From NCBI RefSeq assembly GCF_900188085.1, contig NZ_FZOU01000009.1, forward strand, positions 62,001-126,000: a DNA stretch of 64,000 nucleotides. Reading direction: 5' to 3'. Made by a program: the position numbers and the translations under genes. This stretch comes from Granulicella rosea. GTDB lineage: Bacteria > Acidobacteriota > Terriglobia > Terriglobales > Acidobacteriaceae. This document shows positions 37,258 to 64,000 of this stretch, in pieces (position 1 is the stretch's first letter; every line of letters begins with the position of its first letter). Below the pieces are notes generated by a model, which made no database searches, was not told where the DNA came from, and worked only from the letters and a program-made list of their open reading frames with translations.

Positions 37258-37275
37258 CTCGCCGCTGTTCACGAG

Positions 37276-37304: not shown

Positions 37305-37331
37305 CGCGTCATGCAAACGAATTGCCCGTCG

Positions 37332-45342: not shown

Positions 45343-45399
45343 ACTTCATCTACTGAATGTGACCGGATAAGCACAGCCGGACGGATGGAGGCTTCGCAT

Positions 45400-45846: not shown

Positions 45847-45857
45847 TTCTCTCCTGC

Positions 45858-45877
45858 ATATCGCAAGCGATATCGCA
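45858..45877. promoter_or_regulatory. Two ATATCGCA sites 12 bp apart
   Basis: ATATCGCA at 45858-45865 and 45870-45877 (TGCGATAT on the minus strand), exactly 12 bp apart; 45858-45873 is also a palindrome. The same 8-mer at the same 12-bp phase occurs before parA (53584, 53596, 53608). Lies between the MarR stop and the dioxygenase start. Confidence 0.5.
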
Positions 45878-45902
45878 AACCGTTTTGTACGAAAGGAACA
45901 CC

Positions 45903-47536: not shown

Positions 47537-47540
47537 GAAA

Positions 47541-47574
47541 GGCCGGCCGTTCAGGGATTCTGAACCGGCCGGCT
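47541..47574. terminator. Bidirectional terminator
   Basis: Stem GCCGGCCGTTCAG / CTGAACCGGCCGGC with one bulged base and a short loop, between the convergent hydrolase and EF-P genes. Confidence 0.8.
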
Positions 47575-47593
47575 GTCTTGTAGCGAATCTGAA

Positions 47594-48169
47594 CTAGACC
47601 CGTCCCGCAAACTCTCGCAGTTCGGTATTGATCTTCAGCTTCTCGCCTTCCTTGATGAAGAGCGGAACCTTGATCTCGAGGCCGGTCTCCATCTTCGCCG
47701 GCTTGGTGCCGCTGCCGCTCGAAGAGTCGCCCTTGCCGCCCGGCTCCGTCTGCTCAACCACCAGCTCGACGAAGATCGGAAGCTGCACGCCGATCGGATT
47801 GCCGTTGTACTTGTTGATCTGCACCATCGTGCCTTCGACCAGGTAGTCCATCGCGTCGGCGAGCTGCTCTTCGGTCAGGGTCAGGGTCTCGAAGCTCTCC
47901 TGGTCCAGGAAGTACGCGCCGTCATTATCGCTATACAGGTAGCTTGCCGGAACCAGCACAAGGTCAGGTTCCTTGAACTTGTCGTCCGCCTTGTAGGTCT
48001 TTTCGAAGACCGCGTTGGTCAGCAGGTTGCGCATCTTCAGGCGAACGAGCGTCTGTCCGCCGCGCGCGGTCGGAGTGCTGATGTCGGAGCCCATGCAGAC
48101 GTAGGGCGTGTTCTCAAGCTCAAAGACCATCTTGCGCTTGATGTTGATTGCGTCGAGTAGTACGGCCAT
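47594..48169 (-). CDS. efp: Elongation factor P-like protein with Arg at the loop tip
   Basis: 191 residues. Three-domain EF-P: KOW-like N-terminus, OB domain (TYKADDKFKEPDL, YLYSDNDGAYFLDQESFETL) and the C-terminal domain (GTKPAKMETGLEIKVPLFI). EF-P relieves ribosome stalling at polyproline. The loop that usually reads PGKG is STPTARGGQ here, with Arg36 at the modified position, so beta-lysylation is not possible; Arg-type EF-P is rhamnosylated in some bacteria. ATG at 48169. Confidence 0.92.
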   Translation of the reverse strand: MAVLLDAINIKRKMVFELENTPYVCMGSDISTPTARGGQTLVRLKMRNLLTNAVFEKTYKADDKFKEPDLVLVPASYLYSDNDGAYFLDQESFETLTLTEEQLADAMDYLVEGTMVQINKYNGNPIGVQLPIFVELVVEQTEPGGKGDSSSGSGTKPAKMETGLEIKVPLFIKEGEKLKINTELREFAGRV

Positions 48170-48196
48170 CCCTTGAGTATAAAACGAACTTCGACC

Positions 48197-48308
48197 CCAA
48201 AGAGGTGTCATCCTGAACGGAGTGAAGGACCTGCTTCTCGCCCGGAGCGGCTTTGCAGCCACAGGGAAAAAGCAGATCCTTCACTCCGTTCGGATGACAC
48301 CTCTTTGG
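48197..48308. repeat. Dispersed repeat, inverted pair (copy H), probable terminator
   Basis: Near-perfect inverted repeat: a 40-base arm starting CCAAAGAGGTGTCATCCTGA and the facing arm ending GGATGACACCTCTTTGG. Sits directly after the rhamnulokinase stop and before the EF-P promoter. Confidence 0.85.
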
Positions 48309-48315
48309 CGGGATG

Positions 48316-49809
48316 CTAACCCTTCGCCCCGGCCTCGAGCGCGCCTTCCATCAGCGCGGCCCAGCGCGCCACCGGCTCCGCATACACCCCGGTGATCGCA
48401 TCCCGGCTGCCTTCGAGCGCCGCAAGCTGCACGGCGAAGTTCCCCACCGTCGAGCTCTCCGGCGCGCCGCGAAAGACCTCCAATCCGGTCGCCTCAGCCG
48501 TCAGCCGGTTCAAAAACAGATTCTGGCTTGCCCCGCCGACGATGAACAGACGCTTGAACTGCTTGCCGCTATGCAGCGAGATGCGGTCCAGCACCTTCGC
48601 ATACCGCGCCGCGAGACTATAGAAGATCAGACTGGCAAACGCCGGAGCATTGCTTGCGCTCTCATCCAACGGATCATGTCCGCGCTTCACCCGCTGCGCG
48701 TTGATCCGCTGCGGCATCCGCTCCGGCAGCAGCAGCTCGGGGTCGTCGACATCGAGCAGATCGTGCGGCCTGGGCAGCTTCTCCGCCGCCGCGACCAGAT
48801 CGACGATGTTCCAGTCCGTGCCCTCGCTCGCCCACTGCTCCATGCACTGCTTGATCAGCCACATGCCGTTGACGTTCTTGTGAAAGCAGACCCGGTCGCC
48901 CACCGCGCCCAGATTCGTGAAGTTCTCTGCGCTCGGCGCATGGCCGTTGCGCGGCTGCTCCAGCAGCGTACCCACCAGCGACCACGTACCCGAGCTGATG
49001 TACGCCCAGTCGTTGCCCTGCGCGGGGATGCCTGCAATCGCCGACGCCGTATCGTGACACGCCGGCGCGACCAGCACCGTATCCGCGAACGCCGGCAGCT
49101 CCGCCAGCGGTCCCGATAGCCTGCCGACCTCGGTTCCCGGCGGAACCAGCTTCGGCGCGCAAGCCATATCCAACTGCGCGGCCGAGAAGATCTCGCGGCA
49201 CCACTGCCGCTTATGCAGCTCTACCAACTGTGTATGCGTGGCGTTCGTAAACTCCGCCACGCGCGCGCCGCCCCATCGCGACAGGATGTACTCCGGCAGG
49301 TTCAGCCACTGCTGGCCTTCCGGAAGTTCCGCGAGCGCATCGGCATGAAGCTGATAGAGCGTATTGATGCGCATCAACTGGATGCCTGTCAGCTCGCGCA
49401 TCCGCTCCGGCCTGGCCTTGCGGTGCAGCGAGCGTTCGGCCTTGATCGTGCGTTCGTCGCGGTAGCAGAAGGGGTCGGCCAGCGCCGCCCCATCTGCATC
49501 CACGCGAACGTAGTCCACCGCCCAGCCGTCGACCGCGATGGAGCGCACTCCCTCGGTCGCCAGCCCGGCGCAGAGCCGCAGGCCGTGCTCCAGACCGTGC
49601 ACGATCATCGACAGATCCCAGCGCAGACCGCCGCCCTGCTCCTCCGGGAGCTCCCGCGGCGCGTTGGGAAAACGATGCACCAGTGTGATCACCGGCCTCG
49701 TTCCCTCCCAACGCAGCAGCGAGACACGACAGCTCTCCGCCCCGAGATCGACCGCGATCGACGCCCGCACGTCCTTCGGCGCAAGCGCCTTTTCGAGCGC
49801 CTTCTTCAT
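48316..49809 (-). CDS. rhaB: Rhamnulokinase
   Basis: 497 residues, FGGY kinase family. Phosphorylates L-rhamnulose. SIAVDLGAESCRVSLLRW (first phosphate-binding loop), IAVDGWAVDYV, AYISSGTWSLVG and FIVGGASQNLFLN are visible. ATG at 49809 overlaps the stop of the aldolase fusion gene (ATGA). The frame continues upstream to 50256 only as antisense-like noise. No rhamnose isomerase in the window. Confidence 0.95.
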   Translation of the reverse strand: MKKALEKALAPKDVRASIAVDLGAESCRVSLLRWEGTRPVITLVHRFPNAPRELPEEQGGGLRWDLSMIVHGLEHGLRLCAGLATEGVRSIAVDGWAVDYVRVDADGAALADPFCYRDERTIKAERSLHRKARPERMRELTGIQLMRINTLYQLHADALAELPEGQQWLNLPEYILSRWGGARVAEFTNATHTQLVELHKRQWCREIFSAAQLDMACAPKLVPPGTEVGRLSGPLAELPAFADTVLVAPACHDTASAIAGIPAQGNDWAYISSGTWSLVGTLLEQPRNGHAPSAENFTNLGAVGDRVCFHKNVNGMWLIKQCMEQWASEGTDWNIVDLVAAAEKLPRPHDLLDVDDPELLLPERMPQRINAQRVKRGHDPLDESASNAPAFASLIFYSLAARYAKVLDRISLHSGKQFKRLFIVGGASQNLFLNRLTAEATGLEVFRGAPESSTVGNFAVQLAALEGSRDAITGVYAEPVARWAALMEGALEAGAKG

Positions 49810-52010
49810 CGCAGGAACGCCTCGACCAGTCCTCCGTCGACCGGAATGATGTGGCCGGTGGTGACGCGCGCCGCCGGACCCGCCAGGAACAGGATCGCCT
49901 GCGCGTTGTCCTTCGGGTCGATCGGCACATGCGTCAGCGTGCGCTTGGCGTAGAAGTGCGCCAGCACATCGCGCAGCTCCTCGTCGTTCATCGTCTCGGT
50001 GAAGGGCAGGTTGTACTTCTTCAACGAAGCAAGCACGCGGTCGCGCGGGAACATCGTCGAACCCTTGACCACCGTCGCCGGGCTGATGCCGTTGACGCGC
50101 GTCTTCGGCGCCATCGACACCGCAAGTTCGCGAACGAGGTGGCTCAGCGCCGCCTTGCTCACGTCGTACGCCTCGCTGCCGCGCTTGGCCACAACCGCAT
50201 TCGCCGAGCTGGTCAGCACGATGCTGCCATCCAGACCCTGTTCGTCGAAGTACCACTTCGCCTCGTCCGCCAGCAGGAAGTTCGAGGTCACGTTGACTTC
50301 AAGCGTCAGCGCCCACAGAGCTTCGTTGATGATGCCGTCCGGAGGCGCCGGGAAGATCGCCGCCGTGTTGATGAGGATGTCCAGACCGCCGAAGGCCTTG
50401 ATCGTCGCCTCGAGAGCCGCCTTGATCGCCTTGCGGTCGCGGATATCGATGGCGGTGAACGTAACCGCTTCCTTGCCCGCGATCGCCTTGGCCTCTTCAG
50501 CCACGGCCTCGGCGCCCTTCGTGTCGCGGTCCGCGACGACGATGTGCGCGCCACGCTCGGCCGCCAGCAGCGCAACCTCGCGTCCGATGCCCGAACCGCC
50601 GCCGACCACCAGCACCACACGGCGGCTCAGCTCTTTTTCAGCCGGCATACGGCGAATCTTCGCCTCTTCCAACGCCCAGTACTCGATCCGGAAGGCCTCG
50701 CTGGCCGGCAGAGCGACGTAGTTCTGGTGCATCTTGAACGCCGACGCAGGAGCCGCCGGACCAGCCTGCGGAATGTCCGGGCAGACCGTGTTGCCGCCCA
50801 GCGCGCCCGCGCCCTGCATCACGCCGATCGCGTTGATGTAGAACTCGCCGGTGATGCGGGCCTCGGTCTTGTTCTTGCCGAAGCTGAACATGCCGACGCC
50901 AGGGATCAGCACGACCGTCGGGCTGGCGTCACGCAGCGCCGGAGAGTCCGGCAGCGCGTGCGCCTTGTAGTACTCGGCATACTCCGCGCGGTAGGTCTCG
51001 AGACCAACCTCGATCAGCTCCTTGATCTCCTTCGGGTCGCCGGCCGGATTCCAGTCGATGAACATCGGACGAATCTTCGTGCGGATGAAGTGGTCCGGGC
51101 AGCTCGTACCCAGATGCGCCAGCGCCTTCGCGGCGTCCGAATTCACAAAGTCCAGCACCTTCGGCAGGTCAGAGAAGCTGCCGATCCAGCGCTGCTTGCG
51201 GCTCACAATGCCGCGCAGATACGGGAACACCTTGGCGGCGATCTCAGCCCGATCCTCGCGCGTCTCCGTCTTCTTGCCGCCGAACATCTTGTAGTCGTCC
51301 ACCTTCGCATGACGCTCGATGAACTGGCCGATCTGGTCGACGATGGTCACGGTGTTCAGATAGCACTCGCGCTGCGTCTCGCCCCACGTAAACAGGCCGT
51401 GCCCGCCGAGAACGACGCCATCGCAACCCGGTGTGTCGGCGACGATCTTGCGCAGCATCATGCCCAGCTCGAAGCCGGGACGCTGCCAAGGCAGCCACGC
51501 CAGCTTGTGACCGAACTCCGCGTTGAACTCCTCCATCTTGATCTTGCCGTTGGCCGAGGCCGCCAGCGCGATGCCCCAGTCCGGGTGCAGGTGGTCGACG
51601 TGCGGGAACGGCAGATACGCATGCAGCGGCGTGTCGATCGAGGCCGCGACGGGGTTGTTGCCAAACGTACACAGCGGATACATCCCGACCATGTTGTCTT
51701 CGGTCTCGACGCCCTGGTAGGCGTTCTCGAGCGCCAGCACCTTATCGAGATAAAGCGTCGCAAAACCCGCGCGCTTGATGCTGCCGAGGTCGCCGCCGCT
51801 TCCCTTCACCCACAGTACGGTCTTGTCCTTGCCGTCCAGCGGGTCCTTCGTCTCCAGCTTCGAGCTTGTGTTGCCGCCGCCGAAGTTGGTCAGGCGAAGG
51901 TCGGATCCCAGCAGGTTCGAACGGTAGCGCAGAAGCTCCGGTCCATCCAGCTTCGCCGCGGTTGATTCGTCCCAAAGATCCTTGAGGAAGTGCAGTTCAC
52001 TCTGTGCCAT
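49806..52010 (-). CDS. Bifunctional rhamnulose-1-phosphate aldolase / short-chain dehydrogenase
   Basis: 734 residues; ATG at 52010 with AGGAG upstream, preferred over the ATG 10 codons earlier. The N-terminal class II aldolase (about 1-430: NFGGGNTSSK, HVDHLHPDWGIALA, GVVLGGHGLFTWG) is fused to an SDR (about 455-734: LVVGGGSGIGREVALLAAER, catalytic Tyr/Lys in SEAYDVSKAALS). The fusion, as in Bacillus YuxG, joins splitting of rhamnulose-1-phosphate with oxidation of lactaldehyde. Confidence 0.95.
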   Translation of the reverse strand: MAQSELHFLKDLWDESTAAKLDGPELLRYRSNLLGSDLRLTNFGGGNTSSKLETKDPLDGKDKTVLWVKGSGGDLGSIKRAGFATLYLDKVLALENAYQGVETEDNMVGMYPLCTFGNNPVAASIDTPLHAYLPFPHVDHLHPDWGIALAASANGKIKMEEFNAEFGHKLAWLPWQRPGFELGMMLRKIVADTPGCDGVVLGGHGLFTWGETQRECYLNTVTIVDQIGQFIERHAKVDDYKMFGGKKTETREDRAEIAAKVFPYLRGIVSRKQRWIGSFSDLPKVLDFVNSDAAKALAHLGTSCPDHFIRTKIRPMFIDWNPAGDPKEIKELIEVGLETYRAEYAEYYKAHALPDSPALRDASPTVVLIPGVGMFSFGKNKTEARITGEFYINAIGVMQGAGALGGNTVCPDIPQAGPAAPASAFKMHQNYVALPASEAFRIEYWALEEAKIRRMPAEKELSRRVVLVVGGGSGIGREVALLAAERGAHIVVADRDTKGAEAVAEEAKAIAGKEAVTFTAIDIRDRKAIKAALEATIKAFGGLDILINTAAIFPAPPDGIINEALWALTLEVNVTSNFLLADEAKWYFDEQGLDGSIVLTSSANAVVAKRGSEAYDVSKAALSHLVRELAVSMAPKTRVNGISPATVVKGSTMFPRDRVLASLKKYNLPFTETMNDEELRDVLAHFYAKRTLTHVPIDPKDNAQAILFLAGPAARVTTGHIIPVDGGLVEAFLR

Positions 52011-52295
52011 TTTGCGAAGCTCTCCTGTAACTTGCGTCATTCCAATGCACGAACATCATTCCACACCGAAGACCAATAGAGCAATTCTTTCCGATGTGAA
52101 TTATTTCCCCGCCGATTGATGGGCCATCTATAAAGAGGCTCTCCATGCCTCACCCAAACCGCGCTTCCTCCTGAGCGAAGCCAGCGACCCCGGCATTTGT
52201 GGTCGATTGTTCCTGCTCGTCGCCGACGCGGCGCCCGGAGAACGCTCCAGCCGCCATATCTTAGGCCTCGACATTAACTCTTGTATAGTTTGCGC

Positions 52296-53321
52296 ATGGC
52301 CGTGCGCATGAAGGACATCGCGGAGGATCTCGGCGTCTCCATCGTCACCGTATCCAAAGCGTTGCGGAATCACCCCGACATCGCCGCCGCCACGCGCGAG
52401 CGCGTCCTGCAGCGCGTCAAGGAGCTCAACTACCGGCCCAACCTGATGGCGCGCAGTCTGGTCACCGGCCGCAGTTCGCTCGTCGGCCTGATCGTGCCGG
52501 ATCTAGTACATCCCTTCTTTGCCGAGATCGCTCGTTCCCTCTCGCTTGCCCTGCGCCGGCAGAACTATTTCCTGATCGTCTGCGCGTCGGATGGCGATCC
52601 GGAGATCGAACGGCAGGTGATCGAGCAACTGCTGGCGCACCGGCTCGACGCGCTCGTCGTCGCCTCCTCGCAGGACCGGCCGGACGCGCTGCGCGAGGTC
52701 GCCGCCCAGGGGCCGCCGCTCATCCTGCTCGACCGCTACTTCCCCGGCTTCGCCAACAGCTTTGTCGGCGCGGACGACCTGAAGATCGGTCAGCTCGCCG
52801 CCGAACACCTGCTCGCCACCGGCCGGCGCCGGATCGCGCACATCCGCGGCCCGCGCAACAGCGTGGGCGATAGCCGCGCACAGGGTTTCCGCGAGACGCT
52901 CGCGGCCAACGGCGCCGGACTGCCCGACATGTACGTCGTCGCGCCCGAGATGGTCGACACCGACGGCCGCGCCACCGGCCACGCCGCCATGAGACGCCTG
53001 CTCGCCCTCCAACCCCCGCCCGACGCGCTCTTCTGCTTCAACGACAACATCGCCCTCGGCGCCATGTCTGCCGCGCTCGAGTCGGGTCTGCGCATCCCCG
53101 ACGACATCGCAGTCGTTGGCTGCGGCAACTACCACTTCGATGACAGCCTCCACGTCACCCTGACCAGCATCGACCAGAGCAGCCAGGAGATTGGACGACG
53201 GATTGCAAAGCTGATCCTCGGCGCGCTGTCCGCCGGCGCGCCCGCCAAACCAAAGCGAATCATCCTTCAGCCAAGGCTGGTCGAGCGCGCCTCCTCCAGG
53301 TTGTCGGGGCCGCGTCCATAA
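52296..53321 (+). CDS. LacI-family transcriptional regulator
   Basis: 341 residues. HTH of LacI type (MKDIAEDLGVSIVTVSKALR) and a periplasmic-binding-like effector domain (LVGLIVPDLVHPFFAEIA, ALFCFNDNIALGAMSAALES). Divergent from the rhamnose genes it likely represses. A TATAGT at 52284-52289 lies just 6 bases before the ATG, with no ribosome site, so the message may be leaderless. Confidence 0.9.
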   Translation: MAVRMKDIAEDLGVSIVTVSKALRNHPDIAAATRERVLQRVKELNYRPNLMARSLVTGRSSLVGLIVPDLVHPFFAEIARSLSLALRRQNYFLIVCASDGDPEIERQVIEQLLAHRLDALVVASSQDRPDALREVAAQGPPLILLDRYFPGFANSFVGADDLKIGQLAAEHLLATGRRRIAHIRGPRNSVGDSRAQGFRETLAANGAGLPDMYVVAPEMVDTDGRATGHAAMRRLLALQPPPDALFCFNDNIALGAMSAALESGLRIPDDIAVVGCGNYHFDDSLHVTLTSIDQSSQEIGRRIAKLILGALSAGAPAKPKRIILQPRLVERASSRLSGPRP

Positions 53322-53583
53322 ATGCGCAAGAGCGCAGCTATCCCCATGGAACAAAACGCCGCAGTCGAAGCACGCCCAGCGCATGCGCCCGCGCCCATGC
53401 CCCAGTTCGGATGTAGCGCTATCTAGATGTAGCCGATTACGATGTAGCCGATTACCTTTTGATGGACGGCGCGCCCCAGGCGCCTGTCATCCTGAACGTA
53501 GTGAAGGATCTGCTCTCGTTTTTGTCGTTGCTTGTTCCTGGTTGCTCCCAGAACGCAATCCGGTTTCGCACTCCCCTGTTTTC

Positions 53584-53626
53584 TGCGATATAGCGTGCGA
53601 TATCTTGTGCGATATATTAGAGATAT
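53584..53626 (+). repeat. 12-bp-phased TGCGATAT repeats before parA
   Basis: TGCGATAT at 53584, 53596 and 53608, and AGAGATAT near 53619: tandem sites at about one helical turn. Probable binding sites (centromere/operator) for the small partner protein. Further single copies: ATATCGCA at 53709, TTATCGCA at 53740, AGCGATAT at 53760. Confidence 0.65.
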
Positions 53627-53696
53627 ATCAAAACTGGCATCTCGTCTGGAAAGACCATGTAGATCGGCCGGTAGAGTGCGCCAAAGCCCTTATATA

Positions 53697-53736
53697 GATA
53701 CATGAGATATATCGCAAGCTATATATCTCATGTATC
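53697..53736. promoter_or_regulatory. 16-bp-arm inverted repeat upstream of parA
   Basis: Left arm GATACATGAGATATAT (53697-53712), 8-base spacer CGCAAGCT, right arm ATATATCTCATGTATC (53721-53736), perfect. About 50 bases before the parA start. No T-run and no upstream gene end nearby, so an operator or centromere is more likely than a terminator. Confidence 0.6.
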
Positions 53737-53788
53737 GCTTTATCGCATGATATAAATAGAGCGATATAGAAACACCGAGGCGCCCACC

Positions 53789-54493
53789 ATGCCAGTCATC
53801 GCAGTCGCCAATCCAAAGGGTGGAGCAGGCAAGAGCACCACCACCCTCCTGCTCGCAACGCACCTCGCCAGCCGGGGCGCGACCACCTGCATCATCGATG
53901 CGGACCCCAACCAGCCCATCGCCGACTGGCGCGCGCACGGCGAATCGAAGTCCGCCGTCAAGGTCGTCGGCGAGGCCCGCGAAGACACCATCATGGACGC
54001 CATCGAGGAGCAGGCCCGCACCCACGCCTTCGTCTTCGTCGACCTCGAAGGCACGGCCAGCCTGCTCGTGTCGCGTTCCATCGCCTTCGCCGACTTCGTC
54101 ATCATCCCCATTCAGGCCTCGGCGGTCGACGTCCGCCAGGCCCAGAAGGCGATCACCGCCGTCCGCAGCGAGGAGCGCCTTGCCCGCCGCTCGAACCCGA
54201 ACCGGTCGATCCCGCATAAGGTGCTGATGACCCGCACGCCCGCGCCGGGCGCGCCGGTTTCGACCATGCAGCGGCAGTTGGAGGAGGAGATTCGCGCCGC
54301 CGGCATCGGACGCTTCCAGAACACGCTTGCTGAGCGCCAGGCCTATAAGGCAGTCTTCAGCGAACGCCTGACACTCGAGGAGATGGGCGCGATGCGCGTC
54401 GGCAACCTCGCAGCCGCCGAGGAGAACGTCCGCCTGCTGGCGAATGAACTGCTCGAAACCCTCACCGCGATCCAGAAGGGAGCCAAGGCATGA
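53789..54493 (+). CDS. parA: ParA-type partition ATPase (type Ib, VirC1-like)
   Basis: 234 residues. Deviant Walker A at the N-terminus ([11 protein letters not shown], Lys10 and Lys15), [13 protein letters not shown] and [11 protein letters not shown] for the Walker B regions; no N-terminal HTH, so the short type Ib kind. Drives plasmid segregation with a small DNA-binding partner. The partner gene overlaps by ATGA. ATG follows ACACCGAGGCGCCCACC. Confidence 0.92.
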
Positions 54494-54846
54494 GCGCAGG
54501 AAAGTTTGGCTTTACCCCCGACGACCCCATCGACCTTGAAGCAGCCGAGGAGCCGCTCGATCTCGCGCGCGCCTTCCAACCCACGCCCATCACGCGGGTC
54601 AGCCCGCCGCGGCTGGCCGAGATGGACCGCGTCGCCCAGGCCGCCGGCTTCACCAGCCGCGAAAACACTCCCGCCGCGCCCCCGCCGCGCCGTCGCCGGG
54701 TGGTCACCGCGCAGCCCACGCGCTTCCTCGCCGTGCGTGCGCCGGAGTCGCTCTACCAGCGCTTCGTCCGCTACGCCGACAAGCATCAGCTCACGTATCA
54801 CGATGCGATTGCCCAGCTCCTGGACACCGCCGGCGAACCGGAATGA
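54490..54846 (+). CDS. Small DNA-binding partition partner (ribbon-helix-helix-like)
   Basis: 118 residues. The first 70 are disordered and acidic, then Pro/Arg-rich (PPPRRRRVV); residues about 77-115 ([34 protein letters not shown]) have the strand-helix-helix pattern of ribbon-helix-helix proteins. Overlap with parA (ATGA) and size fit the ParG/ParB-like partner of type Ib systems. Likely binds the repeats before parA. Not a named family I can confirm. Confidence 0.7.
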
Positions 54847-54857
54847 AACCGTACCCC

Positions 54858-54992
54858 AGCGGCTGAAGACTGAAGCACGGAAACGGCATGGCTGAAGCCT
54901 TGCTCTCACCAAAACCGCAGATAACAAACACTCAAAGTGATGTTGTCGTCTGTTTTCTTCTTTGTCATTCCCGAAGGGAACCTGCTGTTACA
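54858..54992. repeat. Two short intergenic repeat types after the partition genes
   Basis: GCATGGCTGAAGCCTTGCTC (near 54886) resembles a hairpin near 59623; TGTCATTCCCGAAGGGAACC TGCTGTT (54963-54989) is a variant of the dispersed repeat family (copy K). Confidence 0.5.
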
Positions 54993-55012
54993 CGTCGGCT
55001 TGCCGGGTAAAG

Positions 55013-56578
55013 CTAAAACAGCCCCATCTGCGTGTTCGTCACCAGCCACTCTTCGAACGACGGCAGCGTCAGCTCCGCGCGTATCTCCTTCGAGACGATC
55101 TGCATGGCGACCGCGCGCCGCTGCTTCGCCGGCACGCGCCGAAAGGCCTCGTCCGTCCGGCCACGCGTCGCGACGATCTCATCGAGCTTCGCCGCGAGCT
55201 TTGCGCCGGGATATCGCCCGTCCACCGCTGCCTGCCGCTGCCGTTCGGCCCACTCCTCATAGACCGATTCGGCGTTCACCAACTCCTCGCGCTGCGCACG
55301 GCCACGCGTGGCCTTGTCGGCCAGCTCGCGCCGGCGCCGGCTGGTGACGAAGTCCGCCGGAATCGGCAGCCCGTTCTCAATCGAATAGATCGCGAGTCCA
55401 GCCGGATTGTCCACGCGATTCCGCGTCGCACCCGTCATCTGCGACTCGAGATACTCGATCGTATCCAGAATCTGGCCTGCATCATGAGCCGCTGCAAGCT
55501 GGCTCGCGCGCGCCGGCAGAACGCCCAGCCGCAGCAGGGCGTCAACCGCCTCTTGCCTGTCCAGCGCAAGCGGCGTCTCTTTCGCCTCGATCGCAACCGC
55601 CGCAGACAGCTCACGCCGATCCTGACGCGTATCCGACCGCGTGCTCGCGAGCAGGTCCAACAGCTCCTGCCCTGGCGTCAGCACGATCTTGTAGCCGGTC
55701 TTGGTCGACATCGGCTGGATGTCCCACTTGGCGATGTACTTGATGTTCACCAGCTCGTTCAGCGCCAGTCCCATCGTGCTCTTGATCTTCGAAAGATGCG
55801 GATACGCCTGCACATTCAGCAGGTTGCAGAGCTCGGCGTAGTCCTTCTCGACCGCCCGGCCCTGGCTGGCGTGAAACCACATATGCAGGTAGCCGAAGAT
55901 GCCCTTCGCGGTCGGCCGCGTGAGTTGCTTGTAGGCGTTGAAGTCCTCGGGAATGACGTAGCGCTGGTTGAGGTTCTCGATCAGCCAGTCCTCAAGCACG
56001 ACCTCGTAGTGCTCCTGCTTTTCGCCGCCCGTCAGGTTGCTCGAACCGGTGCGCCGAAAGGTGCGGAAGACGTGCAGCACCTCGTCCGAATAGACCTTCT
56101 TGGCCGCGAAGTATACCACCTGCTCGGAGGTGATGGTCGTGTCGGTCATGCGCTTGCCCCAGCGCACGATCTCCTCGTAGATCTCGCCGTTGCGCGAAAG
56201 GCCCAGCTCCTGAATCATGCGGTAGCCGCTGAAGCGGATCGGGTTCTGAATCTGTCCCGTGCGAGCGCTCTCCTCGCGGACGATCTTCAACAGCGCGATG
56301 AACTTGTCGCGGTCGGTCGTCGACGGCAGGCCTAGCTGCTCGGAGCCGCGAAACTCCGCCGCCACCTTGACCTTGTGCCCGTTGCGAAAGACGATCTGCT
56401 CCACGCGCCGCGAGGTCTTGTGCTTGTCGCGCGCATCATTTGCGCCGAAGAAGCCGATCTGCAACAGATTCTTTTCAAACCGCACCAGATCAACATCAAC
56501 AGCGATCGGCATCAGCGTAGAGACCGCGTCTTTACGGGCTTTGGCGCTGTTGCGAGATGTAGTGCGCAAGGTCGGCAT
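55013..56578 (-). CDS. Plasmid replication initiator, RPA family
   Basis: 521 residues. I recognise it as the replication initiator protein A type found on plasmids of Alphaproteobacteria and Acidobacteria. The core (about 30-320) has winged-helix-like stretches: LLQIGFFGANDARDKHKTSR, GLPSTTDRDKFIALLKIVR, VYSDEVLHVFRTFRRTG, LTRPTAKGIFGYLHMWFHAS. A charged C-terminal extension (about 340-521) follows. ATG at 56578, with an AT-rich promoter region upstream and then the iteron array, the usual order of an iteron replicon. Convergent with the partition operon. Appears intact. Confidence 0.85.
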   Translation of the reverse strand: MPTLRTTSRNSAKARKDAVSTLMPIAVDVDLVRFEKNLLQIGFFGANDARDKHKTSRRVEQIVFRNGHKVKVAAEFRGSEQLGLPSTTDRDKFIALLKIVREESARTGQIQNPIRFSGYRMIQELGLSRNGEIYEEIVRWGKRMTDTTITSEQVVYFAAKKVYSDEVLHVFRTFRRTGSSNLTGGEKQEHYEVVLEDWLIENLNQRYVIPEDFNAYKQLTRPTAKGIFGYLHMWFHASQGRAVEKDYAELCNLLNVQAYPHLSKIKSTMGLALNELVNIKYIAKWDIQPMSTKTGYKIVLTPGQELLDLLASTRSDTRQDRRELSAAVAIEAKETPLALDRQEAVDALLRLGVLPARASQLAAAHDAGQILDTIEYLESQMTGATRNRVDNPAGLAIYSIENGLPIPADFVTSRRRRELADKATRGRAQREELVNAESVYEEWAERQRQAAVDGRYPGAKLAAKLDEIVATRGRTDEAFRRVPAKQRRAVAMQIVSKEIRAELTLPSFEEWLVTNTQMGLF

Positions 56579-56705
56579 AGGATGCTGGTGCAGCGGGCGG
56601 ATCTATGTTGGTTGAATCCTATAAGAAAAACATCTTCTGTAAAGACAGGTAAAAACTATGGGGAATAGTAACTAATTCAGCAATAAGAAGTTAGCCATCG
56701 ATCTT

Positions 56706-57380
56706 TGCCAGCGCACCTCTCTAACTCTGCCAGCGCACCTCTCGGATCGTGGATGCGGGCCTCTCGCCGGGGCGCCAGCCAACGTCTCGCGGGCTGCCAG
56801 CGCGCCTCTCGGGTGTGCCAGCCGACCTCTCTGTGCTGTGCCACGGAACCTCTCTATGGTTCGACCCAGTGAGAAATGCACCGGAGACGATGCACAATCG
56901 CGCCGCGACAAGCGTTTCTGCCAGCGCACCTCTCTAGCCTTCGTCTGAAATGCACGATGAATGGTGCATTCGACCGCATGCCGTGCCAACCAACCTCTCG
57001 CTGCAGGACGCGTTTCGCGGGGAGCCTGCGGAGAACGCAGGCAGGCGAGAGGTCTGCTGGCAGAAATTGTCCAATCCGTACGGAAAGATTTGTTCGTAAG
57101 TAGCTCATTCGCATTGGTTTTGCTCGCTTTGTGCCAGCCATCCTCTCTATTCGATGGGGAATGCGATGGGGAGCGGATGGACGAGAGGTCGGCTGGCGGA
57201 AGGGAGGCGGCTAAGACCAACGGCCGATCGCGAGCATCCGCAAGGATGCGAGAGGTTGGCTGGCAAAGACGCGAAGGAGCGCGATCCCATCCGCCAGAGG
57301 GTATGCTTCCGGGGGCTCTCCGGCCTGCAAGCGGCTTTGCTTTCTGTGGGTTCGTCCGCGTCGGTGCCAGCCGACCTCTC
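56706..57380. repeat. Iteron array, 13 copies of TGCCAGCSNACCTCTC
   Basis: Plus-strand copies at 56706, 56728, 56773, 56795, 56816, 56839, 56919, 56984, 57132 and 57365; minus-strand copies at 57047-57062, 57183-57198 and 57250-57265. Spacing of the first cluster is near 21-23 bp (two helical turns), then wider. The last T or G varies; 56839 and 56773 are the least conserved, and a further half copy ends in GGGCCTCTC near 56764. Expected binding sites of the RPA initiator. Confidence 0.9.
56949..56970. promoter_or_regulatory. AATGCAC-GTGCATT inverted repeat inside the iteron array
   Basis: 7-bp arms around an 8-base spacer; a related ATGCACC/GATGCAC pair lies at 56876-56895. Different from the iterons, so possibly a second protein's site. 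Confidence 0.45.
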
Positions 57381-57594
57381 GCATCTTTTCGCGGCATCAA
57401 TCTTTTGCACGATTTGTTGACATTCTGCGCTAAACTGGCACCCTCAGCGGAAGCAGATTGACTGCACCTGGGTAGGTGAGTCGCGGGTCCATCGCGCGTG
57501 CTCCCTAGGGCCCCGCAAAACTCCAGACCCTGGCTCTTTCCATGGGCATTTCCAGATCAACGTAGATCATTCCGCGCACCTCAGGGAGAACGAC

Positions 57595-58353
57595 ATGAAT
57601 CTTCAGAAGCGTCTTGCAGCCGAGTTTGTCGGCACTTTTTGGCTGGTCTTCGGCGGCTGCGGCAGCGCCGTGCTGGCCGCGGCCTTTCCCGCTCTTGGCA
57701 TTGGTTTCGTGGGCGTCTCGCTTGCCTTCGGGCTTACGGTTTTGACGATGGCGTTTGCCATCGGCCATATCTCGGGCTGCCACCTGAACCCGGCCGTGTC
57801 GGTTGGCCTGGTGGTCGGCAAGCGCTTTCCGGCGGCGGAGCTGCTGCCGTATACGGTGGCTCAGGTGCTGGGCGGCATCGCCGGCAGCGCGGTGCTGTAT
57901 GTGATCGCCAGCGGCAAGCCGGGCTTCGCGCTGGGCGGCTTTGCGACGAACGGCTATGGCGCGAACTCGCCTGGCGGCTACTCGCTGCTCGCCTGCTTCG
58001 TGGCGGAGCTGGTGCTGACCTGCCTGTTCCTGCTCATCATCCTCGGCTCGACCGATGTGCGCGCGCCAAAGGGCTTCGCGCCGATCGCCATCGGCCTCGG
58101 CCTGACGCTGATCCACCTGATCAGTATCCCCGTGACGAACACGTCGGTGAACCCCGCGCGCAGCACGGCGCCGGCGCTCTTCGTCCACGGCGCCGCGCTC
58201 AGCCAGCTCTGGTTGTTCTGGGTCGCGCCGATCCTGGGCGCGGCGATCGCCGGCCTCATCTACAACTTCATCTTCGCCGAGGAGGTGGATGCGACCAAGC
58301 ACGCGGTGGTCGCGAAGCCGGAGTACGAGGCTTTGCCGAATACCTCGGCGTAA
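57595..58353 (+). CDS. aqpZ: Aquaporin Z
   Basis: 252 residues, six membrane helices and two half-helices with NPA motifs (GCHLNPAVS and SVNPARS). His and Arg around the selectivity filter fit a water channel, not a glycerol facilitator. ATG preceded by AGGGAGAACGAC. Lies just beyond the origin. Confidence 0.96.
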
Positions 58354-58422
58354 TTGGGAGGTGGCAGGGCGATCCTCGGCTGTCTGCCTCGGCGCGCCTT
58401 GCCATGCCGCACCTCAAAGGCT

Positions 58423-58564
58423 CGTCATTCTGAACGCAGTGAAGAACCCCGTATTGGCTTTTTTTGTTGCTTGTCTTTGTTGGAACTCCGACGCAGGTCG
58501 CGTGAATCGAACAAAGGCAAAGCAAAGGCCAATACGGGGTTTCTTCACTGCGTTCAGAATGACG
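58423..58564. repeat. Dispersed repeat, inverted pair (copy J)
   Basis: Left arm CGTCATTCTGAACGCAGTGA to GTATTGGC (58423-58458); right arm GCCAATACGGGG to GTTCAGAATGACG (58528-58564). Nearly perfect 36-bp stem with about a 70-base loop, between convergent aquaporin and kinase genes; could end both transcripts. Confidence 0.85.
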
Positions 58565-58633
58565 AATTCGGTTGCGAGTCCAGTGAAAGTCCTCGCTGCC
58601 TAAACTCTCAACGAGCAACAACAGGCAGCCTCG

Positions 58634-59548
58634 CTAGCGCGCGGTCCTGGCCCGCCAGACTGCCCCGGCGATGGGGTCGACCACGCCGTCCAGCGTTCGG
58701 ACGTCGGGGAACTCTTCGCGCACCGCGGCGATCAGCGACTGACGAACGGGTTCGACCATCTCCATGATCGACCCGGCGAAGGCCACGGGCGGCGCCCATC
58801 CGGGATCGTCCGAGGCGAGCTTCAGCCGGCGGATGATCAGCCGCACGAGGTACGCAAGCTCGCGGCCCTGGCGGTCGAGCACCTGCCCGGCGACGGCGTC
58901 GCCCTGCCGCGCGCAGGCCAGTACGACCGACGTGAGCTTCGAGAAATCCGGCGCGGGCTGGCGGTTGCCATAGGCGACCAGCTCGTCGATCGAGCGCAGC
59001 TCCCACAGGTCGAGGATGGCGGCCATCAGCAGCGTGGCGCGGCCTTCGTCATGCGCCAGAAACGCCGCGCGCAGGCCCTCGAAGCCGATCCGGTAGCCCG
59101 AGCCCTGATCGGACAGCGCCGGGCCCCAGCCGCCGGCGCTGGTCAGCACGCCGGCCGGGGTGCGGCCCGCGACGTTCGAGCCCGTGCCCGCGAGGACCAG
59201 CACACCGGGCTGTCCGGGAAAGGCCGCGTCGAGCGCGATCTCCACGTCGCCGAGCAACAAGAGCTTGCCCCCCACGCGCTCGCCGATGGTCTTGCGCAGC
59301 CAGTCCGCGACCATGGGAACGCTCTCGCCCGCGGCGCCCACGCAGGTCCGCTTGATCGACCGCATGGAGACGCCTGTGGCGGCGGAAAGCTGCGCCAGCG
59401 CCGCGTCCAGATTGTGCGTGGCGGACTCGGCATCGGTCCGCATCCGTTTGATGGTGCCGGTTCGTACGCGGGCAAGTTCGCGTTTGTCGTCGGCCAGCAC
59501 ATAGTCTGTCTTCGTGCCGCCTGCATCCAGCGCCAGATAAAAGCTCAT
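58634..59548 (-). CDS. BadF/BadG-family kinase, probable N-acetylglucosamine kinase
   Basis: 304 residues; ATG at 59548. Actin-like ATPase fold: DAGGTKTDYVLAD (phosphate 1), LVLAGTGSNVAGR, and GWGPALSDQGSGYRIG, typical of GlcNAc kinases. With the sugar transporter upstream it suggests amino-sugar uptake and phosphorylation, though glucose-type specificity is possible. Confidence 0.82.
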   Translation of the reverse strand: MSFYLALDAGGTKTDYVLADDKRELARVRTGTIKRMRTDAESATHNLDAALAQLSAATGVSMRSIKRTCVGAAGESVPMVADWLRKTIGERVGGKLLLLGDVEIALDAAFPGQPGVLVLAGTGSNVAGRTPAGVLTSAGGWGPALSDQGSGYRIGFEGLRAAFLAHDEGRATLLMAAILDLWELRSIDELVAYGNRQPAPDFSKLTSVVLACARQGDAVAGQVLDRQGRELAYLVRLIIRRLKLASDDPGWAPPVAFAGSIMEMVEPVRQSLIAAVREEFPDVRTLDGVVDPIAGAVWRARTAR

Positions 59549-59585
59549 GCGTTCGTGTACTCCGCTTACGACAGCTTGGTCAAGT

Positions 59586-59643
59586 CCCCGGGGCGAAAGC
59601 CCTGTTCGCTCCGGGGAATGCTTCATGAGGCTGAAGCCTCATG
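59586..59643. repeat. Double hairpin between transporter and kinase genes
   Basis: First hairpin CCCCGGGGCGAA / TTCGCTCCGGGG with one mismatch (59586-59616), then CATGAGGCT / AGCCTCATG (59624-59643). The second motif resembles the repeat near 54886. Possibly a transcript-stabilising or terminating element. Confidence 0.55.
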
Positions 59644-59659
59644 CTCCATACGAAGACGT

Positions 59660-60940
59660 TTAAACTACCTCGGGCGGCGGCAACGTAGCGATCGAGGCCA
59701 CGGTCTGCTTATGTCCGTCGAGCGCGAAATAGAGCAGGTAGACATAGCAGAGCAGCACGATGGCGAAGCTGCGCTGATAGCCGAAGGCGTCGGCCAGCAC
59801 GCCCTGCAGCGGCGGGATCAGCGCGCCGCCGACGATCATGGTGACGAGGATGCCCGAGCCCTGACTGGTGTGTCTGCCAAGCCCTTCGAGCGACATGGGG
59901 AAGATGCAGGGCCACATGACGGAGTTGAAGAGGCCGCACGAGACCACCGCCCACATCGCCACCGGGCCGTGGCCGAAGATCGCCGCGGCCATGCACAGGA
60001 TGGCGAGCACGCAGACGAAGGCCAGCGCACGCGGCGCGCGGACGCGTTGCAGGGCAAAGAAGCCGATCAGCCGCCCGACCATCGCGCCGCCCCAGTAGAG
60101 CGAGACATAGTGCGTGGCCTCGGCGTGGCTCAGGCCGCCCATCGAAGGCTGCCCGAGGAAGTTGATGATGATGCTGCCGAGCGCGACCTCCGCGCCGACG
60201 TAGGTGAAGATGCCCACGGCGCCGAAGCGCAGATTGCGGAAGTCCCACGCGCTGCCGGTCTTCACCGCGGCCTTATCTTCGGTGGCGATCAGCACCGGCA
60301 GGTGGACGAAGCGCGTGAGGATCGCCATCAGGAACGCGGCCGCGGCCAGCACCATGTACGGCGCCTGCACAGAGTGCGCAAGCTGCGCGGCGGTGGCGCC
60401 GGCGGCGATGAAGATGAACATCGCGCCCACCTTTGGCGCCAGCGTGCCGGCGAGCGAGTTCAGGAACCCGCACAGGTTCAGGCGCGAGGCGGCGGTCTCC
60501 GGCGGGCCAAGCGCGCCGACGTAGGGGTTGATGGCGACCTGCAGCAGCGCGAGTCCGCTGCCGATGACGAAGAGCGCGAAGAGGAAGAGCGGATACAGAA
60601 TCAACCGCGAGGCCGGAAGAAAGAGCAGCAGGCCGAAGGCGATGGTCGCGAGCGAGACGACGATGCCGCTCTGGTAGCCGATCCGGCTGACCACCCTGCC
60701 CGCAGGCGCCGACATGACGAAGTACGCGCCGAAGAACGCCGACTGCACCAGCAGGGCGAGGAAGTTGGTCAGGTGGAAGAGGTCTTTGAAGTGCGCGACC
60801 AGCACGTCGTTCATCGTGGTGATGAAGCCGATGCCGAAGAAGAGCGAGACCATCAGCGTCAGCGGAACGGCGTAGCTGCCCTGCGGCGCCTCTGTGTTCG
60901 CCAACGTGGTCGATGTGCTGCTGGATGTCCCACCCGCCAT
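59660..60940 (-). CDS. Sugar MFS transporter (FGHS/NagP-like)
   Basis: 426 residues, 12 membrane segments. Fucose/glucose/galactose:H+ symporter type: FFGIGFITTMNDVLV, FFGAYFVMSAPAGRVV, LLQVAINPYVGALG. The ATG at 60940 with GGAGAG upstream is chosen over the longer frame. Paired with the kinase it suggests N-acetylglucosamine uptake. Confidence 0.88.
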   Translation of the reverse strand: MAGGTSSSTSTTLANTEAPQGSYAVPLTLMVSLFFGIGFITTMNDVLVAHFKDLFHLTNFLALLVQSAFFGAYFVMSAPAGRVVSRIGYQSGIVVSLATIAFGLLLFLPASRLILYPLFLFALFVIGSGLALLQVAINPYVGALGPPETAASRLNLCGFLNSLAGTLAPKVGAMFIFIAAGATAAQLAHSVQAPYMVLAAAAFLMAILTRFVHLPVLIATEDKAAVKTGSAWDFRNLRFGAVGIFTYVGAEVALGSIIINFLGQPSMGGLSHAEATHYVSLYWGGAMVGRLIGFFALQRVRAPRALAFVCVLAILCMAAAIFGHGPVAMWAVVSCGLFNSVMWPCIFPMSLEGLGRHTSQGSGILVTMIVGGALIPPLQGVLADAFGYQRSFAIVLLCYVYLLYFALDGHKQTVASIATLPPPEVV

Positions 60941-61028
60941 TGCGCTCTCCGTTCGGTGCAGTGTATCCAACCAACGTACCGCGTGTTGGCGAGATAGGGA
61001 ACTGGAAAGCGCGGAGAGGATGTTCCGT

Positions 61029-61439
61029 TCAGGATACGAACAGTCGGGAATGGACGACGCGAAGGCCAAGCTCCGTTTCAAACGCGTTGAAATCGCGGTC
61101 GCGATGAAGCAGCGCGTATCCTTCCATCAAGCAGAAGGTCGCAATGACGCAATCGATGGTCTTACGGATTGTATAGCCTCTGGCGCGTAAAGCACGATAG
61201 TTCTCCGCCGCCGCTACAGCGAGCGATTCGCCGCCGGTATTGAAGACGGTGAAACGTTCGAGCTCATGTTGTGTCAGGCGGGCGTTGGCTTCGGTGGAAA
61301 TCCCTTGCAATATCTCGCACAGGATCAAGTCGGTCAACCCAATCGGCTCCCGATCCACTTCGATCTCCAGCCACATCGTCTCCGGAGTGACGACGCCGCG
61401 CAGATAGTCCACCCATACGCTCGTATCGACAATCACCAT
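61029..61439 (-). CDS. vapC: PIN-domain toxin VapC
   Basis: 136 residues. PIN fold with acidic residues Asp5 (VDTSVWVD), Glu42 (LCEILQG), Asp96 (KTIDCVIA) and Asp114/116 (HRDRDF), expected to cleave RNA. Starts 3 bases after the antitoxin stop. Confidence 0.93.
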   Translation of the reverse strand: MVIVDTSVWVDYLRGVVTPETMWLEIEVDREPIGLTDLILCEILQGISTEANARLTQHELERFTVFNTGGESLAVAAAENYRALRARGYTIRKTIDCVIATFCLMEGYALLHRDRDFNAFETELGLRVVHSRLFVS

Positions 61440-61442
61440 GGG

Positions 61443-61649
61443 CTACTGGTCGAACTCTCGATTGAGACGAGAGGATTCAAGATCCCCGACCCACTCGATC
61501 TTTCCTCGCAGCTTTCGTATGCCGCCTTGTGCACGCGTCTTCACGAGCAGCCGCAATCCAGCTTCCACGGCTGCTCGCTTTGTCGGGGCGCCACAGCTCT
61601 CCATCGCTTCACGAAGCAAATCGTCGTCGATTTCGATGTTGGTGCGCAT
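61443..61649 (-). CDS. vapB: VapB-type antitoxin
   Basis: 68 residues, MRTNIEIDDDLLREAMESCG: a ribbon-helix-helix DNA-binding start, then a tail (RGKIEWVGDLESSRLNREFD) that would plug the toxin. ATG at 61649; an in-frame upstream extension lacks support. Autoregulated operon with vapC expected. Confidence 0.88.
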   Translation of the reverse strand: MRTNIEIDDDLLREAMESCGAPTKRAAVEAGLRLLVKTRAQGGIRKLRGKIEWVGDLESSRLNREFDQ

Positions 61650-61761
61650 GACGAGCGGATCCTCTATGTGTAAGGATTGCACGTTTATGTGTAGGAAACA
61701 AGTTGCCAGTGAAGCCACGCTGCAGATCACCGCCAGTGGATAGGCGGGAGGCAAGTCAAAG

Positions 61762-62313
61762 CTAATACGGATGGTCCTGGGCTGGCTCGGAGAGCGGAAC
61801 CGGGGTAGCGTTCTCCTGGGGTTCGGTCTTCGCCTGGCGCCAGTTGTTCTTCAATACTTCGAGTCTGACCTTCGCGATGCCCGCGCGCAGAATGCCAAGC
61901 TCGCGCGCCGCGCCCGAGGAGAGGTCGATGACCCGGTCGGGCGAGAGCACGCCGCGATCGTTGATCTTAACCACAACCGACTTGCCGCTGGTTACATCCA
62001 CCACGCGCACCATGGTGCCGAAGGGAAGCGTACGATGGCAGGCCGTCAGTTGGTCCTTGTCGAAGATCTCGCCGCTTGCGGTCGGGTGTCCGTCGAGCAC
62101 GGAGCCATACCAGGAGGCGAGCCCGAGGTTGCTGCTGAACTTCTGAATGGCCCGCAGCGGATGATGCTGCGTGGCAAACTCCGTCTGCACCGAAGCCGCG
62201 AAGGCCGACGGCGAACTGGACGGGGGAGGCGGCAGCGGCGGCAGCGCCACGACCCACAGGCTGGCCACGGCCAGACACGCGACGATCAGGTCGATCTTTA
62301 GAAATCGAAGCAA
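61762..62313 (-). CDS. RlpA-like septal/cell-wall protein
   Basis: 183 residues; TTG start with GGAG 5 bases upstream. N-terminal membrane segment (about 8-25), Pro/Ser-rich linker, then a double-psi beta-barrel with GLASWYGSVLDGHPTASGEI and INDRGVLSPDRVIDLSSGAA. RlpA proteins are lytic transglycosylases acting on denuded glycan; no SPOR domain is present here. Confidence 0.88.
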   Translation of the reverse strand: MLRFLKIDLIVACLAVASLWVVALPPLPPPPSSSPSAFAASVQTEFATQHHPLRAIQKFSSNLGLASWYGSVLDGHPTASGEIFDKDQLTACHRTLPFGTMVRVVDVTSGKSVVVKINDRGVLSPDRVIDLSSGAARELGILRAGIAKVRLEVLKNNWRQAKTEPQENATPVPLSEPAQDHPY

Positions 62314-62665
62314 GCAATCTCCAGACCGGTGATGTTCCGGCCATCCCCAAGTTTACCGCGTTTGCCCGGTTAAACCTACCCCGGAGAACATGTTAGACAG
62401 GCTCGGCGGCGCGCTTGAGATGCTGTTTTGGGAAAGAGTGGTTGCCCGTTCGCGCCACATTTTCCAGTATTCAAGCCTGTTTCGTTCATCGACGCTATCG
62501 TTCGGAAGGTTTTGCGATGTCTCAAATTGTGACGCATATCTTTCTTGCGAACTTCGCGCTTTTCGTCCCACGAGTGAACCAAGGGCATTAACTCCTCAAG
62601 CGAGCCGTTGCCGCATACGCTAGAGTGGCGAGCGATGGAAACTCCGCCGCACGAGCCACTGCATC
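62314..62665. other. Gene-free region between divergent genes
   Basis: About 350 bases upstream of both the RlpA-like and MBOAT genes; presumably both promoters. I see no repeat or RNA gene in it. Confidence 0.5.
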
Positions 62666-64000
62666 ATGCTTCTGAGCACGCCTGCTTTTTTCGTGTTCTA
62701 CCTCCTCGTATGGCTTCTTTACTGGGCTCTCGCGGGCCAGCGTAGCGCGAGACCGATCCTCCTGGTCGTAGCCAACCTCTTCTTTCTCGCCAAGTTCGGC
62801 GCGCTCTACCTGCTGCTGCCCGCCGCCGCCACGGTCGATTACCTGGCCGGCCTTGCGCTGGCGCGCGAAGGCGCAACCACGCAACGCCGCGCACTCGTTG
62901 GCCTTTCGCTTGCGGTCAACGTTGGGTTGCTGGCTGGCATGAAGCTGTTGCCGCTTGCCGTTGGCGACCGTTTTGCATGGCTGCTTACGTTGTCGTTATC
63001 GTTCTACTGCTTCCAGTCGCTGACCTATACGATTGACCTCTATCGTCGCGATGAAGATGCGCGGGCGGAGCCGAACTATCTTGCGTATCTCTCCGCCGCG
63101 CTCTTCTTTCCGGTCATGGTTGCCGGGCCTATCCTGCGCATGCATGCGTTCCTGAAGCAGCTTGCGCAGCGGCCGGAGCTGACGCCCGAGCTTGCGGGAC
63201 GCGCGCTGCTGCTGATCGGCATCGGTCTGGTGAAGAAGCTCTTGATCGCGGACTATCTCTCGGAGAATCTCGTCACGCGCGTCTTCGATACGCCCACGTT
63301 GTATAGCGGGCTCGAGGTGCTGGCCGCGGTCTATGGCTATGCGATGCAGCTCTTCTTCGACTTCTCCGGCTACACCGATATCGCGCTCGGCGTGGGCTTG
63401 CTGCTGGGTTTGACGCTGCCCGAGAACTTCAACCGGCCCTACCTCGCCGCGAACCTCGCCGACTTCTGGCGGCGCTGGCACATGAGCTTTTCGTTCTGGC
63501 TGCGCGACTACATTCAGGAGCCGCTCTCGCAACGCACGCGGCGCAAGCATCCGCTGAAGACGTATTGCTTCAGCGTGATTGCGACGATGCTGCTCGGCGG
63601 CCTGTGGCATGGCATCGGCTGGACCTTCCTCGTCTGGGGCGCGCTGCATGGCGTGGCGCTGGCGACGGTGCAGCTATGGAAGAGCTGGCGCAAGAAGGCA
63701 AAGAAAAAAGCAACCATCGCAGGCACAATCTTCGCAACGCTGCTGACCTTCCACTTCGTCTGCTTTACGTGGATCTTCTTCCACGCGGCTTCGATGGCGA
63801 ATGCGTGGGAGATACTCGGCCGCATCGGTTCGATGAGCTTTACGCATGACAACCTTACGTTGCCGATCCTTGGCGTCCTGGCGCTTGCGGCGGTGTTGCA
63901 TTGCCTGCCGCTGCGCCTGCTCGATGGCGGCGCCACATTGCTGGGACGAATGCCGTTCTGGGTGCAGGGACTCGCGCTGGCGGGCCTGGTGCTCGCTATC
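62666..64000 (+). CDS. MBOAT O-acyltransferase (AlgI/DltB-like), 5' part
   Basis: Starts at the ATG at 62666 and stays open for 445 codons to the window edge, so the C-terminus is missing. Many membrane helices; MBOAT signatures LFFDFSGYTDIALGVG, FNRPYLAANLADFWRRWHMS and the catalytic His in GGLWHGIGWTF. Transfers acyl groups (usually acetyl) to an exported polysaccharide or lipid; with an SGNH/AlgJ partner expected downstream, outside the window. No clear ribosome site. Confidence 0.92.
   Translation, partial: MLLSTPAFFVFYLLVWLLYWALAGQRSARPILLVVANLFFLAKFGALYLLLPAAATVDYLAGLALAREGATTQRRALVGLSLAVNVGLLAGMKLLPLAVGDRFAWLLTLSLSFYCFQSLTYTIDLYRRDEDARAEPNYLAYLSAALFFPVMVAGPILRMHAFLKQLAQRPELTPELAGRALLLIGIGLVKKLLIADYLSENLVTRVFDTPTLYSGLEVLAAVYGYAMQLFFDFSGYTDIALGVGLLLGLTLPENFNRPYLAANLADFWRRWHMSFSFWLRDYIQEPLSQRTRRKHPLKTYCFSVIATMLLGGLWHGIGWTFLVWGALHGVALATVQLWKSWRKKAKKKATIAGTIFATLLTFHFVCFTWIFFHAASMANAWEILGRIGSMSFTHDNLTLPILGVLALAAVLHCLPLRLLDGGATLLGRMPFWVQGLALAGLVLAI

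Follow-up and report, generated by a model that had tools for sequence, protein, structure and literature searches.

Gene and iteron anatomy

The window described here is the whole 64,000-nucleotide stretch that was analysed from the Granulicella rosea genome (contig NZ_FZOU01000009.1, positions 62,001 to 126,000 of the forward strand). Its right-hand part harbors an iteron replicon, consisting of a parA partition gene with a partner gene, a gene for an RPA replication initiator, and an array of iterons. The original prediction named these same parts, with 13 iterons, and all of them are recovered as open frames and by motif scan, together with a degenerate 14th copy. The features are listed below by window position.

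1..64000, no strand: segment of a 135,545-bp circular plasmid (C14:62001-126000), from an end overlap and a gene across the join
53585..53769, no strand: candidate centromere/operator (parS), eight GCGATATAT copies over both strands with at most one mismatch
53789..54493, plus strand: parA, small ParA/VirC1-type partition ATPase, 234 aa, open frame with profile match
54490..54846, plus strand: partition partner, 118 aa, C-terminal ribbon-helix-helix-like, open frame with a Pfam match below cut-off
55013..56578, minus strand: RPA replication initiator, 521 aa, open frame with PF10134 match
55016..55030, minus strand: codons of the C-terminal QMGLF, a putative sliding-clamp-binding motif, from its form and from homologues
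56585..56705, no strand: A+T-rich spacer, candidate unwinding element and initiator promoter, from composition
56706..56854, plus strand: seven-iteron ladder, at 56706, 56728, 56750 (degenerate), 56773, 56795, 56816 and 56839
56919..56999, plus strand: two direct iterons, at 56919 and 56984
57047..57062, minus strand: inverted iteron, 63 bp after the preceding direct one
57132..57147, plus strand: direct iteron, 85 bp after the inverted one
57183..57265, minus strand: two inverted iterons, at 57183 and 57250
57365..57380, plus strand: last direct iteron

The iteron motif TGCCANSNNACCTCTC, with up to two mismatches, has 16 matches in the window, and 13 of these fall within 56706-57380, bearing out the 675-bp array described at the outset. 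One hundred shuffles of the window gave a mean of 3.4 matches and at most 8, none reaching 16. Ten of the 13 iterons lie on the plus strand and three on the minus strand. The degenerate copy at 56750-56765 scores 7.5 bits, has an intact right half, and is in register with its neighbours. With this copy, the array consists of a ladder of seven iterons, with steps of 22, 22, 23, 22, 21 and 23 bp, and seven scattered iterons. In the spacer between ladder and initiator gene the A+T fraction is 0.60-0.70 in the 50-bp windows starting at 56610, 56635 and 56660; the same stretch is expected to hold the initiator promoter, and its composition would suit a role in unwinding.

The RPA initiator matches PF10134 at 30.2 bits (cut-off 27), which places it in that family. 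Its start could be that of the 521-aa frame or an internal one at 56512, giving 499 aa. The frame contains no internal stop and its C-terminus resembles those of relatives, so that, for RPA, the earlier remark of no visible decay is accurate. The predicted model has, over residues 34-309, a two-winged-helix fold that matches RctB, RepE and pi at 9-14% sequence identity, followed by an additional helical region that runs to the C-terminal QMGLF. A sequence search of solved structures returned chance-level matches only (best E 0.038). A C-terminal QxxLF is found in nearly all close RPA homologues, and it has the form of a sliding-clamp-binding motif, making it a putative point of clamp contact. 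Membership of the TrfA/IncP family was considered and rejected, the PF07042 match reaching 13.2 bits against a cut-off of 22.

Evidence for a closed circular molecule

The source genome (G000) comprises 5.29 Mb in 24 contigs, of which the one carrying the window is here called C14. It is 135,640 bp long, and its opening and closing 95 bases are identical. A 200-bp probe from its end matches, genome-wide, only that end and, over 95 bp, the start of the same contig, and the join is crossed by an intact 517-aa HAD-UbiA gene. Because the end overlap is unique and the gene over the join is intact, we interpret C14 as a circular, non-integrated plasmid with a length of 135,545 bp, with closure resting on an assembly overlap. 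The circularity check proposed in the original prediction is thereby answered, and so is a second, for dnaA, which is located on a different contig, C11, and not on C14. Both results contradict the earlier suggestion that a plasmid had integrated intact into the chromosome, its origin being silent or serving as a second chromosomal origin, and we regard this as very unlikely here. Integration may exist elsewhere: in one relative (G378:C1 near 3,771,445, locus L118; G378 contamination 10), an RPA-parA-RHH (ribbon-helix-helix) module with an intact ladder lies at 3.77 Mb inside a single 5.23-Mb contig, where it could be an integrated plasmid, a second origin or an assembly join.

The dependence of closure on an assembly overlap also leaves a slim chance that C14 is a piece of a larger replicon and that the 95-bp overlap is a short repeat. 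Against this, the 95-mer occurs at the two C14 ends only and the joined frame is intact. The self-overlap test covered the ends of 21 contigs (C1-C21), of which C1 and C2 start with N only and are uninformative. Exact 95-bp self-overlaps were found in eight contigs (C9, C10, C12, C13, C14, C16, C17 and C20), and this common length probably reflects the overlap length of the assembler. N-only contigs aside, no overlap between different contigs was detected among C1-C21.

The seven further self-closing contigs range from 13.7 to 175.8 kb, and the genome may therefore hold at least eight circular plasmids. ParA-type matches, some of them weak (E up to 7.7e-4), are present on seven of the eight closed contigs, C17 being without one, and also on C4, C5, C7, C11 and C19. 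A second RPA, with 49% identity, is found on C4 (90,184 bp), whose ends did not close. C7 (534 kb), whose ends did not close either, carries near 288,004 a ParA/RHH pair (L094) with a ParA 50% identical to the window parA product; ahead of the pair are AAGCTTTT-type repeats at intervals of about 30 bp. This contig is perhaps a further large plasmid, or the pair a chromosomal cassette.

Taken with the anatomy described above, we are confident that the module is the replication and partition system, presumably active, of a 135.5-kb circular and probably low-copy plasmid, working in the manner proposed below.

Cargo, mobility and chromid status

C14 has 95 called genes; the Pfam scan took in 67 of them plus the gene across the join. 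The matches include RND efflux systems, carbohydrate kinases, a GH8 glycosidase, a pectinesterase fragment, dTDP-rhamnose-type genes, an aldolase-dehydrogenase fusion, an L-lactate permease and elongation factor P (EF-P). The earlier description of the cargo as xylan, rhamnose and cellulose genes is plausible from these matches. Relaxase PF03432, the one relaxase family searched, has no match genome-wide, and TraG-type coupling proteins are found on C16, C3, C7 and C8, and not on C14.

The original prediction offered a megaplasmid or a chromid, and the plasmid half of this is upheld by the closure of C14, by dnaA on C11 and by best initiator matches to plasmids. A chromid, that is, a plasmid-type replicon that has become indispensable, is improbable, although less so than integration or a larger replicon. 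The combination of a plasmid-type origin with metabolic cargo and an EF-P gene (window 47594-48169) would suit it, and Acidobacteriota are among eight phyla with reported chromid-carrying genomes (PMC12456017). EF-P, the sole core-type gene noticed, was tried as an indicator of chromid status and discarded, a second copy being present on C6. Among the 67 of 95 genes scanned, we noticed no single-copy core gene, EF-P being the only one checked for a second copy. No tRNA or tmRNA gene is found in the window (rRNA was not searched), and 48 of the 62 genomes of the genus, some of them incomplete, lack an RPA match at E 1e-20. Chromid status is thus unproven, and a plasmid remains the preferred reading.

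A conserved origin plan

We compared 27 different origins, comprising those of the window, of C4 and of relatives found in genomes or on plasmids. Each locus was counted once, and the set excludes L109 and L114 (upstream regions identical to those of L040 and L043), loci with a broken or fragmentary RPA (G016:C11, G027, G030, G049:C6 and G385) and the 20%-identical G099. The 27 are not independent: they include two groups of close relatives, L007, L038, L039 and L107 on the one hand and L020 and L021 on the other. One of the loci set aside, G049:C6:122550-124030 (L024, L027-L030), holds a broken RPA in pieces, and an intact class II RPA (classes are defined below) is found on C5 of the same genome.

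A seven-iteron ladder is present in 27 of 27 origins, starting 87-128 bp upstream of the initiator start. Permitted steps were 18-27 bp and the spacings were not imposed. The first step is 22 bp in 25 origins and 21 in two, the second 22 in 24 and 21 in three, and the third 24 in 14, 23 in 10 and 22 in three; the fourth is again 22 in 25 and 21 in two, the fifth is 20-23, mostly 21-22, and the sixth 21-24. The third step is longer than both of its neighbours in 24 of the 27, the exceptions being L016, L120 and L121. Ladder scores of 106-165 bits, compared with a maximum of 17 when each origin was shuffled 20 times, are not independent evidence because the weight matrices were built from the same sequences. 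Four origins (L020, L021, L044 and L090) have a single weak rung each. In all 27, the 95 bp directly upstream of the initiator gene have a higher A+T content than the rest.

Beyond the ladder, iterons of class I (13 loci) alternate in orientation. Their 31 direct-to-inverted gaps measure 27-29 bp (2), 40-41 bp (8), 51-55 bp (14) and 62-63 bp (7). These values step by about 11 bp, so that the sites would stay on one face of the helix. None of 5,000 random sets equalled this regularity, and a smaller set of 8 loci with 15 gaps gave the same outcome, but the loci are related. The inverted-to-direct gaps are 83-85 bp in 17 of 19 cases, the others being 63 and 115 bp. In plasmid pACPOL4 (L090, 4923-6446) the array has grown to 24 copies, mostly inverted pairs recurring about every 136 bp.

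Iteron classes

Arrays of the window's motif are found in relatives of at least 62% identity that retain the 5' part of the RPA gene, and a 49-residue fragment of 86% identity (L017, G030), which has no class I iterons, is the exception. Relatives of 28-56% identity show, where scanned, at most one two-mismatch match and carry repeats of their own. Classes I-V share T[GT]CCA on the left and are distinguished by their right halves: ACCTCTC in I, CTGCGG in II, CTTCGG in III, AAGTCCGC in IV and GGTTCGG in V. Three distant loci carry other iteron sequences. Across the origins compared, the seven-iteron plan is conserved and the iterons have diverged into classes: the spacing is kept and the repeat sequence differs by plasmid group.

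In the initiator tree, class I forms a single clade (13 rows, support 99/99), as do class II (6 rows, 97/94), class IV (2 rows, 100/100) and class V (2 rows, 100/99); class III is one row, and the three distant rows have long branches and unsure placement. In the 24 loci of classes I-V, RPA residue 129 is Arg where iteron position 2 is G and Asp where it is T. This pairing fails in the three distant loci, where class VI has Arg with T, class VII has Lys with T, and the register of class VIII is uncertain. If the relevant tree forks (85-89%, not starred) hold, the pairing may have changed at least twice.

Two intact RPA genes occur together in five genomes, and in all five the pair is of differing class: I and II in G000, G037 and G170, I and IV in G034, and III and IV in G055. 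For G170 the pair was read from plasmids pACPOL4 and pACPOL2, with whose positions G170 agrees; the match to its second RPA contains one TGA but was counted, and in the pACPOL2 annotation this gene is complete. The G034 and G055 assemblies have 7-8% contamination. These pairs fit incompatibility within a class and do not prove it, five of five being too small a sample for a test.

A more general proposal, which we hold tentatively and at somewhat less than even odds, is that the RPA plasmids of Acidobacteriaceae share one fixed seven-iteron geometry with a 1-2-base jog at the third step, on which the iteron sequence, most strongly in its right half, may have diversified into classes that would act as incompatibility groups, letting several RPA plasmids share a cell. 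The first winged helix would read class-specific bases through residue 129, and the machine would be completed by a clamp tether at the C-terminus and by inverted iterons in helical phase.

Partition genes and candidate centromere

The parA product matches the VirC1 model at 64.3 bits (cut-off 24) and is of the small type without an N-terminal DNA-binding domain, as in type Ib-like systems. Its partner scores 21.7 bits against RHH_10, under the cut-off of 27, and homologues of the partner adjoin parA in several relatives. Upstream of parA lie GCGATAT repeats, which from their position and number are read as a candidate centromere. The eight GCGATATAT copies were reached by 0 of 100 shuffles and are the highest count in 93 upstream regions on C14, its own included, the next being five. 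GCGATA-type repeats also precede parA in relatives with a similar ParA (L007, L037, L038, L107 and L118), and other relatives have different repeats there.

Proposed mechanism

RPA, an initiator of the RepE/pi/RctB fold, would bind the seven-iteron ladder as monomers, which the 22-bp steps, about two helical turns each, would place on one face of the DNA. It may then open the A+T-rich spacer adjoining its own gene and recruit the host replisome, probably by tethering the sliding clamp through the C-terminal QMGLF. The seven scattered iterons, mostly helically phased inverted pairs, are probably control sites acting by titration or by pairing of two origins. ParA and its RHH-like partner would segregate the plasmid through the GCGATAT repeats.

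Several observations weigh against this picture. The third rung of the window's own ladder is degenerate, and the 115-bp inverted-to-direct gap that breaks the rule is also in the window. The test of helical phasing treats related loci as independent. Five of seven distant RPA proteins of other phyla lack the C-terminal motif, as does L016, and it is therefore not essential to the whole RPA family. A DnaA box, TTWTNCACA without mismatch, is neither found in the origin nor common to the relatives; the same consensus is absent from 3.5 kb around the genome's own dnaA and may not be that of the host. The GC-skew shift that the original prediction suggested looking for is present locally, as a step at the iterons from about -0.13 to +0.07 in the window, but over the circle there is no minimum there, the detrended minimum lying at 397 and the maximum at 77,434; GC skew was set aside as a marker of the origin.

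Soils are rich in acidobacteria, which are difficult to manipulate. An origin of defined parts, in several iteron classes that co-occur within genomes, offers a direct base for compatible vectors, and the natural variants make it testable how an initiator family shifts its binding site yet keeps its geometry.

Distribution and comparison with known systems

At E 1e-20 or better, the RPA family is found in 14 of 62 genomes of the genus, 18 of 398 sampled genomes of the family and 22 of 397 sampled genomes of the order, samples that overlap and include the source genome. At least 525 homologous proteins are present in the protein collection (8,000 candidates scored), and the three best initiator matches among plasmid records are acidobacterial plasmids. 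Our searches of open-licence papers returned no account of the origin ladder, iteron classes or C-terminal motif of the acidobacterial RPA family. The G. tundricola genome paper lists five plasmids and uses "replication" solely in a COG label (PMC4148992).

The closest of these plasmids, Acidisarcina polymorpha pACPOL4 (NZ_CP030843.1), has an RPA 63% identical to that of the window, iterons of the same class, the same ladder and alternating inverted pairs, and the DNA beside RPA is 77% identical over 142 bp. It differs in carrying 24 iterons ahead of its RPA gene, inverted pairs recurring among them, in the weak seventh rung of its ladder, and in having no ParA match within the 14 kb examined. 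Granulicella tundricola pACIX901 (NC_015057.1) and Acidisarcina pACPOL2 (NZ_CP030842.1) share the ladder geometry and a nearby ParA, with RPA 45-46% identical, but their iterons are TTCCAGCCGGGTTCGG-like and TTCCAACCGACTGCGG-like, respectively.

Farther afield, seven non-acidobacterial RPA proteins were examined, of 11 such records found. Plasmids of Isosphaeraceae, Rubrobacter and Manganitrophus carry initiators annotated as RPA or "TrfA" and, in four of the seven, upstream repeats spaced by about 22 bp, as read from their positions; the identity is only 22-26%, and QxxLF is present in two of the seven. The RK2 oriV/TrfA system is likewise an iteron origin with a clamp-binding motif in its initiator, but in TrfA this motif includes residues 137-138 (review PMC4980987), whereas the window RPA has its putative motif at the very C-terminal end. 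Mini-F RepE, R6K pi and Vibrio RctB share the two-winged-helix fold of the predicted RPA model, and differ in their 9-14% identity and in lacking its extra C-terminal helical region. The window replicon belongs to a known kind, the RPA iteron plasmids, to which the origin plan and the iteron classes are added here.

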